The notes beneath the pieces are model-generated. The model had not been told where the DNA came from. It was given only the letters and a program-made list of their open reading frames with translations, and ran no database searches. From Mangrovicoccus sp. HB161399 (GTDB taxonomy: Bacteria; Pseudomonadota; Alphaproteobacteria; Rhodobacterales; Rhodobacteraceae): a DNA stretch of 64,000 bases. The translations under genes were made by a program, and so were the position numbers. Each line of letters starts with the position of its first letter. Within the stretch, counting starts at the first letter, position 1. Below are positions 4,826-31,974 of this stretch, one piece after another. The stretch is taken from assembly GCF_013184745.1 (NCBI RefSeq), contig NZ_JAATVU010000013.1, positions 1 to 64,000 on the forward strand, read 5' to 3'.

Positions 4826-5304
4826 TCCGGACGGCGCGTCCGCGGACGGACCTCGCTCCGCGGATGCCAAGCGCTGCCCTGCCCCGCAGGCCCGGGGAGC
4901 CCGCCGCCCTTCAGCGCGACGGAAGGCAGTCAAGCGACCGGCGTTGTTGCAGAACCCATCGGATTCCGGGATTCACTGCGTGAATCCGGTGGGTTAAGAG
5001 CCTTCCATGACGAAGCCGGAACCCGCCCGCTACTGTACGACGAACTGGAAATCCTATAACCACGCGCTGAAGCGGCGCGGATCCCTGCTCGTCTGGCTGG
5101 ACAAGGACATGACCTGGCTCGCGCCGAAGGCAGGCAAGCCCGGACGTCCACCCGTGTTCTCCGCCGCGGCTATCCAGTTCTACTTGATGGTGAAGGTCCT
5201 GTTCGGCCTGCCACTCCGGCAAACAACGGGCATGGTTTCCAGCATCCTCAAGATGGCAGGGCTGGACTGGCCGGTGCCGGACTTCTCCACGCTCAGCCGC
5301 CGAC

Positions 5305-5353
5305 AGAGTGAGACGGGACAGTGGCCCCTGTGGGGCCGCGAAAGCCCGTCGAA
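5305..5353 (+). repeat. Structured palindromic element, copy A
   Basis: Inner hairpin GGCCCC-TGT-GGGGCC (5323-5337), then GCGAAAGC, enclosed by a six-pair outer stem GACGGG (5312-5317) and CCCGTC (5345-5350). It begins GAGTGAG and ends CGAAC, as copy C does. It interrupts the transposase between SRRQ and the next expected residues and changes the reading frame. Confidence 0.75.
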
Positions 5354-5439
5354 CAATCACCGTCCAGCTCTCGTCTCGCCGGGTGGCAAGCCCTCTGAAC
5401 CTGCTGGCGGACAGTACCGGGATCAAGTTTCTCGGCGAA

Positions 5440-5485
5440 TGAAGAGGGACCGTGGCGCCAGTGGCGCCGCGAAAGCCCGATGAAT
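5440..5485 (+). repeat. Structured palindromic element, copy B
   Basis: Inner hairpin GGCGCC-AGT-GGCGCC (5454-5468), then GCGAAAGC, with a short outer stem GGG (5446-5448) and CCC (5476-5478). The insert brings an in-frame TGA that ends the transposase frame after FLGE. ATGA occurs on both sides of the core and may be a target duplication. Confidence 0.7.
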
Positions 5486-5834
5486 GAGTGGCTGGCGAGA
5501 AAGCATGGCACGCACCGCCGCCGCCAGTACCGCAAGGCCCATCTGGCGATGGACACGGCGACCGGCGACATCCGGGCGGTGGAGTTCACCTCCAGCCGCG
5601 AGGGCGACAGCCCGGTTCTGCCAGCGCTTCTCAACCAGATCCCGGACGGCGAGGAGATCGGCACTGTCACCGGCGATGGAGCCTTCGACACCCGCCGGTG
5701 ACACTCGGCGGTCCTGGCGCGCGGCGGCACGGCGGTCATTCCGATCCGCAGAAACGGACGCCTCTGGAAGGAGGACTGCCCGGCAGCGATCGCCGGAAAC
5801 GACATCCTGCGGGCGACCAGGCGCCTCGGCCGCG

Positions 5835-5881
5835 TTCGCCGGACTTTCGCGGCGCCACTGGCGCCACGGTTCCGGCTCACT
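5835..5881 (-). repeat. Structured palindromic element, copy C (inverted)
   Basis: On the minus strand: GAGTGAG, outer stem GCCGGA/TCCGGC, inner hairpin GGCGCC-AGT-GGCGCC, and GCGAAAGT. It lies in the opposite orientation to copies A and B, splitting the transposase between LGR and WKKW. The outer stem differs from copy A at two pairs, both by compensating changes. Confidence 0.75.
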
Positions 5882-6131
5882 CTGGAAGAAGTGGTCCGGC
5901 TACCATGTCCGGAGCAGGATCGAAGCCCGGATGAGAAACCTGAAGTCCTTCGGCGAGCGGATCTCGTCAAGGGACCCCGATCGCCAGACCGCCGAGATCC
6001 ACATCCGGGTTGCCCTGATGAACCGCTTCAACGCCCTCGGCACCGCCGAGATCGAACGCGTGGCCTGACCTCAACTGGGGAAAGGGGCATCACGTCCTAA
6101 CCCAGACTTCTGCAACAACGCCCAAGAGACC

Positions 6132-29947: not shown

Positions 29948-30818
29948 ATTCCGGTCGGGCGGCAGGGAAAGGTCTGCAGGCTCTGTCCCAGCATTGCGCC
30001 GATGCGGCCGCGCATCAAGTCCGCGCGCGCGCCGCCGGCCATTCCGCCCTCAATTCGCGCGCCGGGGAGAAGGCATTGCCCTGCGGTGCCAGGCGCTTCC
30101 CCGGCCTGCCCGAATTTTCGCCGCCGCCCTTTCAGACAGACGGTCCGGCATCATGCCGGAGCGTCCGCCTCCCTCGCCGCTGCGACCGGGAGCGCCTGCC
30201 CCGGCCTCCGCGCCACTGCGGCCGCTGGCCGGCGCCGACGCCTTGCGCCCGGGTGGCACCGCCCCGTGCTGCTCAACGGCTCCGATCATGGACGTGGGCG
30301 CCGGCATCGCGGATCGAGAGCGCCGCCGCCGAAGCCTGCGCTGACAGGCATGCCCGGCTGCTACGCGCTTGTGGCAGTCCAAGGCCCGGCGGAGACGGCA
30401 TCGGACCCGAGACGGGCGCATCGCCGAAGGCGCCGAACAATCCGGCATCTCATGGCACCGCCCGACACGCGCAGCCTCTCCCATGTCCCGGCACCCCGGC
30501 ACCCCGGCACCCCGGCACCCCGGCACCCCGGCACCCCGGCACCCCGGCACCCCGGCACCCCGGCACGAAGCGGGTCGCAGGCCATCCCGGACACTGCAAG
30601 CGCTTGGGCGAGATCCGCGGGAATGGTCAGGGCGGTGCCACCCGACGGGCCGTCCCGGCCACCGGCCCGCATCGGCGGGAAGTGACCGTACGCCGACCGC
30701 CGTGCCACCTGACCGGGCTGGCAGATCGGCGGCGCCATCCCGGCAAGCCTGCAGTTCGATGGGCAATGGCATGGACCCCGCCGCCCAGCCGCGGCGCGAC
30801 TTTCCAAGTGGATAGATC
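29948..30818. other. Gene-free stretch with a tandem repeat
   Basis: No frame here is supported as a gene. The notable content is the 8-bp tandem repeat at 30490-30566. Frames crossing it code for repeated Pro/Gly/His residues simply because of the repeat. Confidence 0.5.
30490..30566. repeat. 8-bp tandem repeat, about 9.6 copies
   Basis: GGCACCCC is repeated nine times exactly, plus the partial GGCAC, with no mismatch. The unit length is not a multiple of three, so copy changes would shift any overlapping frame. Perfect identity implies recent expansion. Confidence 0.97.
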
Positions 30819-30866
30819 GGAGAGGAGACATGCCATGGAGATGGAGAGGAGACATGCCATGGAGAT
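30819..30866. repeat. Exact 24-bp tandem duplication at the IS110 start
   Basis: Positions 30819-30842 and 30843-30866 are identical (GGAGAGGAGACATGCC, then ATGGAGAT). Each copy carries a ribosome site and an ATG in the same frame. Confidence 0.95.
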
Positions 30867-31974
30867 CATGGGGATCGGCCCCGACCTTGCCAAGACGGTG
30901 TTTCATGCTGACGGCGCCGGTCGAAACGACCGGACCGTGCCGAGACAGACATTGCGCCGCGACGCCGCCGTGACGTTCCTTGCCCGGCTTCGGCCTTGTC
31001 TCGTCGGCATCGAAGCCTGCAGCGGTTCGCGTTGCCGGGTCCGGGTGGTCCAGGAGCTCGGCCACGAGGTCCGGCTGGCTGCGCCGCTTCCCCGCCGAAC
31101 GGCCGCAACGGCGCCGAGGCGATCCGCGGGGAGGCCGGCCGACCGTCGATGCAGGACATGCCGAAGGCGTAGCTCCGGCACGACGCCACCGAAATCACCG
31201 GAGCGGCTCGAGTTGCAGGCTGTCCACCGGATCCGGCAGAGACTGATCTCCGGTCGGACGCGGCTGGCGAACCGGGTGCGGAGCCTGCTGGCCGAACATG
31301 GCGTGGCCATCGCCCGCACCGTCAGCCATCTGCGGAACGCGCTTGTCCGGACCGCCGGAGAAAGCCGCCGCGAGGACGGGGTGCCGGACATGATCCGGGA
31401 ACTCGCGATGGCAATCCGCGACGAACTGGCAGGGCCCGGCAAGCGTATCGCCGCCTTCGACCGCAGGATCAGGACGCTGTTCCGGTACAACGGGGCCTGC
31501 CAGCGGATCGGCTGCATCGAAGGGATCGGGCCCCTCTCGGCAGATTTCGAGGCGCGCCTTCGGCGTGACGCTGGGACTTGTGCCGAGACAGAGGCCGAGC
31601 GGGGGCAAGGCGCGGCTCTTCGGCAGGGTGCAGCGACCCTGGCCCCTGCGGGGCCGCGAAAGCGCGAGCTCCAAGCGCGGCGGCCGCTACCTCCGCACGC
31701 TGATGATCCTCGGTGCGAGAGCCGTGCCGGGCAAGGCGCGCGGCACGACGGACGCCAGGAGACGGCGGATCGCCCGGCTGCGCGCGCGGCGGCATGCCAA
31801 TGTCGTGGCCGTCGCGCTGGCCGGCAAGAACGCGAGGATCGTCTGGCCGGTTCTCGTGCGGGACGAAGAATGCGATCCGGCGCGTGTCGCGGCGGTGAAG
31901 CAAAGCAAACAGCGCGGGCGATCACGCCGGCCGTTGCCCCAGAGGACTTGCGGCAACTTGGCTGGAGATGGTGA
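30834..31974 (+). pseudogene. IS110-family transposase, decayed
   Basis: The N-terminus reads MGIGPDLAKTVFHADG, then FLARLRPCLVGIEAC and ELGHEVRLAA, the RuvC-like start of IS110 transposases. The frame is then lost: NGAEAIRGEAGRPSMQDMPK (about 31110-31170) lies in another frame and hits a stop. The central part (LELQAVHRIRQRLISGRTRL) and the transposase_20 part (GCIEGIGPLSAD; LGLVPRQRPSGGKARLFGRV; GGRYLRTLMILGARA) lie in different frames. A 39-bp palindromic insert sits at 31630-31668. Not functional. The element boundaries cannot be seen, as IS110 lacks inverted repeats. Confidence 0.85.
31630..31668 (+). repeat. Structured palindromic element, copy D
   Basis: Inner hairpin GGCCCC-TGC-GGGGCC (31641-31655), then GCGAAAGC, with outer stem GCG (31633-31635) and CGC (31663-31665). 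The insert appears to be exactly 39 bp, between LFGRV and SSKRGG of the IS110 transposase, and keeps the reading frame. Confidence 0.75.

Follow-up and report, generated by a model that had tools for sequence, protein, structure and literature searches.

The gene for an IS5-family transposase in Mangrovicoccus sp. HB161399 (genome of 7.18 Mb in 323 contigs) is broken at three points by a small structured unit, which raises the question of what this unit is and how it came to lie there. The stretch of DNA analysed, referred to here as the window, comprises 64,000 nt of contig NZ_JAATVU010000013.1. Its IS5-family insertion sequence (IS; positions 4940–6122, forward strand) is bounded by 15-bp perfect inverted repeats, matches NCBIfam family NF033579, and aligns over its full length to an intact copy in the same genome (L032, at G000:C201), which has a 310-a.a. 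open frame and lacks all three segments. The L032 transposase matches NF033579 at 2.5e-106; the fragment encoded at window positions 5007–5306 does so at 9.3e-32, below the whole-protein cut-off. Alignment to L032 sets the ends of the inserts in the transposase gene (5007–6068, forward strand): (i) copy A, at 5308–5354 on the forward strand, runs from GTGAG to CGAAC; (ii) copy B, at 5439–5485 on the forward strand, runs from ATGAAG to GATGAAT; and (iii) copy C, at 5834–5880 on the reverse strand, is inverted relative to the gene. Each is 47 nt long, has an empty site in L032 and adds a net 43 nt, a few target bases being replaced at each of the three sites. An initial annotation of this locus had described three copies of one unit in an IS5-like transposase, which was correct apart from the ends, here refined to 47 nt, and had regarded them as insertions. 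Because L032 and other IS copies lack the segments, normal IS coding sequence is ruled out as their origin.

Outside the inserts, the window gene and L032 are free of indels relative to each other and differ at 29, 14, and 104 first, second, and third codon positions, respectively, with 2 stop codons; as a sign of selection on the protein while occupied, this third-position excess is weakened by the possibility that the divergence predates the insertions. A pattern search of the window (up to 3 mismatches) returns 4 matches where shuffling expects 0.11, and 0 of 100 shuffled sequences reach 4. The fourth match is a degenerate copy at 31632–31666 on the forward strand, which is also found by the covariance model (E 3.6e-4, model positions 6–40) and adjoins the remnant of an IS110 transposase at 30724–31620 (PF01548, 8.1e-5, under its cut-off). 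Rfam 15 at gathering scores gives no match at any of these elements; its sole match in the window is a tRNA gene at 1021–1107 on the reverse strand. Rfam 15 models also fail to match four further loci that carry the element (L106, L139, L172, and L108) up to E 5. No description of it was found in the literature within reach of the search, most subscription journals being outside that reach, so that the absence of a fitting named family, as annotated initially, holds to this extent.

The way in which the element, hereafter F1, enters its target can be read from pairs of occupied and empty sites. Among the fetched loci, 65 of 147 distinct F1 copies have an alignable empty homologue, and the remaining copies matched occupied sites only, or nothing. 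With junction gaps of at least 12 nt taken as occupied, the net gain in these 65 comparisons, many of which share a site, is +43 in 40, +42 in 16, +41 in 5, +40 in 3, and +45 in 1. Several close pairs resolve the exchange. For instance, Paracoccus versutus (L284) has 47 nt in place of the GGCG of P. pantotrophus (L291, 97% identical), and L065 has 47 nt in place of the CCAGC of L131 (90% identical). At the start of an IS3 orfA, 47 nt in M. algicola (L145) replace 4 nt of Paracoccus (L196) and Antarctobacter (L197), and in a prophage tail gene 47 nt in L150 replace 5 nt of L335 (87% protein identity). Insertion of F1 is thus the replacement of 4–5 target nt by 45–48 nt, although the exact ends carry 1–2 nt of doubt because many empty sites are only 65–85% identical. 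No target-site duplication was found in the F1 junctions examined. A constant small loss of target is, to our knowledge, not typical of any transposase. Among 16 insertion sites, one of them of the second family described below, the target has A at –1 in 12, G at –2 in 13, and A at –3 in 11, a preference that depends in part on junction placement, which can move by one base. F1 is found in both orientations, as in copies A and B versus C within one IS5 gene, and of 22 flanking segments with a mobile-element or phage family, 9 read along the F1 direction and 13 against it. Copying of the outer stem from the target was looked for by eye at several sites and not seen.

The commonest form of F1, which is 45–48 nt long, reads RTGAG, the 5' arm of an outer stem, ACC, GTGGCSCC, a 3-nt loop, GGSGCCGC, GNAAG, the other arm of the outer stem, and CGAAY. 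Conservation of the ends is partial, with single end positions reaching 54–74%. The initial annotation had seen compensating changes among the three window copies and had concluded that the fold is selected. In copy A the outer stem is GACGGG/CCCGTC and the inner stem GGCCCC/GGGGCC; in copy C these are GCCGGA/TCCGGC and GGCGCC/GGCGCC; and copy B shares the inner stem GGCGCC/GGCGCC, but in its outer stem only the innermost GGG/CCC is paired before pairing breaks. Moreover, A, B, and C are not three free tests of covariation, because at any one IS site the copies found elsewhere have a common version of the stem. The conclusion stands on a wider base, as copies elsewhere both covary and have empty sites. 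Insertion contexts were grouped into 58 clusters, each represented by the copy with fewest core mismatches, and 57 remain after removal of one that is cut by a contig end. Over these, 234 of the 285 cells for the five outer positions closest to the loop are paired; treating the contexts as equals, with phylogeny left uncorrected, shuffled 3' arms give 173.8 ± 5.0, and 0 of 2000 shuffles reach 234. Sliding the outer arm by one position leaves 131 or 142 paired cells. The 57 contexts, a few of which represent one IS site in copies that have diverged (e.g., L103 and L116) and 6 of which were found by a model already containing the stem, hold 43 different outer arm pairs, 15 of them without a mismatch across 5 bp. 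At the variable inner pair, 33 contexts have CG, 19 GC, 2 GU, 2 UA, and 1 a mismatch. A like test on 26 copies from the source genome, many of which share IS sites, was positive too. In addition, L324, L334, and L351 have one inner pair changed from G-C to C-G on both sides, with the next pair changed from U.G to U-A. Since the outer arms vary and yet stay paired, selection acts on a folded single strand of F1, either DNA or RNA.

The initial annotation had also read the sequence GCGAAAG as a stable mini-hairpin with a GNRA tetraloop, a reading that does not survive comparison. The block occurs as GAAAG, GTAAG, GCAAG, and GGAAG, and in L324 and L334 the base before GNAAG changes along with the inner stem, which would deprive a tetraloop of its closing pair. 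The GNAAG block is therefore more plausibly one side of an internal loop (ACC/GNAAG). As a separate observation, the copies at L107, L139, L140, and L168 lie between the arms of larger palindromes, an arrangement that appears four times in one metagenome bin.

Within the source genome, the core pattern (up to 3 mismatches) has 48 matches and the reversed pattern 0. The covariance model, built on 26 of 30 loci (alignment A1; the near-duplicates L013, L018, L021, and L025 were left out), finds at least 60 matches at E ≤ 0.01, a lower bound as 150 of 19859 first-look candidates were scored, and one that necessarily includes the 26 model rows. The genome-wide model counts that follow are likewise lower bounds, the first-look candidates having been scored in part. 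In the other three genomes of the genus, at least 52, 61, and 3 matches reach E ≤ 1e-4, and F1 is present in at least 11 of the 61 genomes compared. Of 198 sampled genera of the family, at least 40, its own included, carry F1, the other genera having at least 1–5 copies each. On the other hand, none of 24 genomes of other families gave a match among the candidates scored. A scan of named genomes found 81 stretches with F1, of which 77 belong to Rhodobacterales, an order whose members are mostly marine. The remaining four come from metagenome bins assigned to Methylocystis (L131), Kangiellaceae (L156), Alphaproteobacteria (L148), and Proteobacteria (L151); the copies in L131, L148, and L156 lie in the same insertion contexts as Rhodobacterales copies, which makes transfer or misbinning likely for them. 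F1 is also found in 25 plasmid records from ten genera, all of which we take to be Rhodobacterales (12 records cover most of the query, and a record of Cereibacter sphaeroides 2.4.1 holds a diverged copy), and in 11 viral contigs, while phage records searched with one 49-nt F1 query gave no match. F1 is thus nearly confined to Rhodobacterales.

The genes that F1 enters belong, where they can be assigned, largely to other mobile elements. Eighty open flanking segments were scanned, chosen by openness and base composition and covering most of the 58 contexts, some twice, together with 19 further loci; IS5 contexts were identified separately, by NF033579. Thirty-five segments match transposase, integrase, or phage/gene transfer agent (GTA) families, with 4 of these matches below the cut-off of their family, namely IS3, IS21, IS66, IS110, IS256, IS1182-like, and IS630-like transposases as well as phage integrase, portal, tape-measure, and tail proteins. 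Three match other families (DUF2189, AAA_24 in a viral contig, and DUF6441), 42 match no protein family, and none of the 80 matches a housekeeping family above cut-off. In two viral contigs with a shared context (L172 and L179), F1 is located inside the 3' end of the AAA_24 gene or immediately after it. Some copies are intergenic or sit in palindromes (L107, L139, and L140), and the plasmid copies L280–L287 were found by eye in unannotated transposase remnants. The preference for mobile-element hosts may be simple survival, insertions in needed genes having been lost.

Taken together, these data point to F1 as a non-autonomous mobile element whose folded strand would be recognised by an enzyme acting in trans. 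We give this reading a probability of about two in three; its mobility is deduced from the occupied and empty sequence pairs. In this reading F1 has four parts: the ends, an outer stem that can take almost any sequence, the internal loop, which is conserved, and the inner hairpin with its 3-nt loop. The enzyme would recognise this folded strand, as single-stranded DNA or RNA, and the ends could serve as cutting sites. Insertion may proceed with a 4–5 nt stagger whose overhang is lost, and copies would be tolerated chiefly in genes whose disruption costs little, namely those of IS and prophages, or where they keep the reading frame.

A different account would hold that a few ancient insertions have been carried along by IS and prophage lineages, with selection in place maintaining the fold and F1 no longer mobile. 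The IS5 copies lend this some weight. When the same genomic copy is counted again where loci overlap, 132 of 231 clustered F1 hits fall in two IS5 clusters, and many copies in the genus probably arose by hitch-hiking as occupied IS5 elements multiplied. Each IS5 site carries its own stem version. Among occupied IS5 copies, which were chosen by insertion length, the divergence of F1 is roughly half that of its flanks, for which there are several possible causes; an apparently far better conservation of F1 was dropped, as the copies behind it had been picked by element similarity. The same IS sites are also occupied across genera, as judged by eye from aligned flanks: IS5 site A in Leisingera (L281), the start of IS3 orfA in Mangrovicoccus (L145), Phaeobacter (L195), and Paracoccus (L282 and L284), an IS1182-like site in L119 and L283, and an IS110 site in L099, L104, and L287. 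A tree of 23 IS5 copies fails to settle whether each site was hit once. The insert-laden copies themselves decay nearly neutrally, with a third-position share of differences mostly at 0.35–0.48 and at most 0.52. In L016, L017, and L023 a deletion has left one hybrid element flanked by site A on its left and site B on its right, and the same is seen in a second IS5 lineage (L113 and L154). At site A of L254 and L257–L259 the net gain is +26 and the inner hairpin is lost, as slippage would predict.

Against a small number of ancient events stand the 58 contexts in many unrelated gene families and, above all, the Rcc01698_C tail gene of a prophage/GTA-like cluster. Four copies of this gene carry F1 in frame, with +42 nt and no stop: L150, L324 and L334 (both in genome G210, with open frames of 1338 and 1337 a.a.), and L351, which is cut by a contig end. 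Of 41 homologues among the matches listed that have at least 60% identity and span nearly the whole query, 3 are long enough for the insert and the other 38 span 480–489 nt, too short for F1; the 11 short ones that were read all lack it. Over their 47 nt, three of these four elements show no difference, while their 60-nt flanks are 70–88% identical, and the genome G218 has tail homologues too short to carry F1 as well. Between the two occupied prophages of G210 the nearest 30 nt are 93–100% identical, and local gene conversion is therefore possible for that pair. The tail-gene pattern is the best sign of recent, site-recurrent insertion, and it leaves a set of immobile ancient insertions unlikely as an account of F1.

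If F1 is mobilised in trans, an enzyme should be sought, and the search covered two families, the Y1 or REP-associated tyrosine transposases (RAYT; PF01797) and the reverse transcriptases (RVT_1). The initial annotation had pointed out that no mobilising enzyme lies in the window and had proposed looking for a linked RAYT or IS200-like enzyme. PF01797 was found in none of the four genomes of the genus, which speaks against a resident enzyme of this kind in them; it is present in 10 of 61 relatives, and G010 is the only one of the 11 F1-bearing genomes to have it. F1 could nevertheless be REP- or REPIN-like and have been spread by a Y1 (HUH) transposase that has since been lost or that arrives on plasmids or phages. 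A single-strand hairpin with a short 5' target motif, no duplication, and no cargo does resemble what is seen in IS200/IS605 and REP elements. Y1 insertion, however, is not known to delete 4–5 target nt as F1 insertion does, and the ends of F1 are RTGAG and CGAAY rather than GTAG or CGTC. For CGTC-tagged REPs, too, the absence of a dedicated transposase has been reported (PMC3733652). On balance, a REP-like origin seems distinctly improbable.

Reverse transcription fares worse. Spread through RNA in the manner of a SINE, by which a structured small RNA would be reverse transcribed into nicked targets and the loss of bases would reflect target-primed synthesis, would account for the RNA-style covariation and for the constant small deletion without duplication. 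RVT_1 matches above cut-off do occur in three of the seven other F1-bearing relatives (G006, G010, and G023, with 2, 4, and 1 F1 copies), but RVT_1 was not found in G000, G002, and G003, and the match in G001 is under the cut-off, so that none of the four same-genus genomes, three of which hold the most F1 copies, has one above it. A resident reverse transcriptase is rejected for these genomes on this ground, and the nearly constant length of F1 also speaks against an RNA route, which is left with a slim chance. A resemblance to group II intron ends (GUGYG...AY) is confined to the tips, with the target loss and the missing reverse transcriptase against it. Removal after transcription, by splicing or ribosomal bypass that keeps occupied genes working, would suit structured inserts of this small size that lie at conserved coding positions in genes of mobile elements, and the occupied Paracoccus IS3 orfA that stays open 3' of its insert, but both orientations, even within one gene, and the near-neutral decay of the insert-laden IS5 copies reject it as a general explanation, the in-frame tail insert needs no removal, and there is hardly any probability left for it.

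The reading of F1 as a non-autonomous element moved in trans gains a second member from the same IS copies. A further family, F2, has the core GCGCCAYYGGTYCGAGC and often the same RTGAG...CGAAY ends; in a loose end test the left end was present in 31 and the right end in 34 of 54 instances. Its stem covaries as well (mean 6.39 pairs versus 4.49 ± 0.23 after shuffling, with 0 of 300 shuffles reaching the observed mean, for 142 instances thinned to 54). With TGAG required, F2 is found in the four same-genus genomes and in 3 of 57 other relatives, with 0 control matches, and 8 viral contigs hold its core together with GCGAACG. Two measured F2 insertions gain +37 and +36 nt over the empty site, 4–5 nt below the element length. 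With like ends and unlike cores, F1 and F2 suggest that a single mobilising machinery may serve both. A frequent part of the F2 core is GGTTCGAGC (e.g., in L034), which resembles the tRNA T-loop consensus, and CCAYYGG could pair alternatively with the 3' arm. Other small palindromic insert types recur at set positions in the IS5 copies L034, L043, L047, L072, and L090. These include units of 40 bp (CCCCTCTCGGGCATTGC...) and 43 bp (GTCGGGCAAAAGGTCC...), an insert in two parts that measures about 106 bp, and units of 75 bp whose core resembles that of F2.

A bolder proposal would place F1 and F2 in a new modular class with swappable cores, perhaps more than these two, common ends, and a free paired stem, inserted by a fixed 4–5 nt exchange through an enzyme outside both Y1/HUH and the reverse transcriptases. 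Such a class would be specialised for life in IS, prophage, and GTA-like hosts as vehicles between cells. This is offered tentatively, as a possibility that is less probable than not. We know of no enzyme class that fits a 4–5 nt exchange without duplication, and the enzyme could therefore add a new chemistry of DNA insertion. It can be sought by experiment, as the order has laboratory members such as Cereibacter sphaeroides and Paracoccus. As a small mobile element, F1 conserves base pairing better than anything else apart from a short core, and in practical terms its copies mark broken IS copies that are left blank in the plasmid annotation examined.

Five known kinds of system can be set beside F1. 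Rickettsia and Wolbachia palindromic elements also insert palindromes in frame into coding genes, as F1 does in prophage tail genes; they are, however, about 100–150 nt long versus about 47 nt. Most measured F1 insertions shift the frame (+43 in IS genes), and many lie in IS or phage genes. Mitochondrial GC clusters, double-hairpin elements, and byps are likewise tiny mobile hairpins, some of them inside genes, but F1 is bacterial, occurs in both orientations, and gives no evidence of translational bypass. Miniature inverted-repeat elements (MITEs) are non-autonomous, palindromic, and found inside other mobile elements; unlike them, F1 shows no target duplication, has no terminal inverted repeat that was noticed to tie it to a known IS nor any autonomous partner noticed next to its copies, and conserves its stem as pairing rather than as sequence. 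The ends of IS200/IS605 elements share with F1 a hairpin and insertion after a short motif without duplication, but F1 replaces target bases, has one hairpin in place of two ends, shows an AGA preference over 16 sites rather than a fixed motif, and has no Y1 gene that could be found. REP and REPIN sequences with their RAYT (TnpA_REP) come closest, being small non-autonomous hairpins in many copies, without target duplication and with single-strand recognition likely. F1 works most like these, but has neither REP tag at its commonest ends nor a Y1 gene found in the genus, and it differs from them in its two-part stem with a free outer arm, in the loss of 4–5 target nt, and in its frequent position inside mobile-element genes. 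F1 therefore belongs with the small non-autonomous palindromic mobile elements, and there is a real chance that, together with F2, it forms a class of its own.
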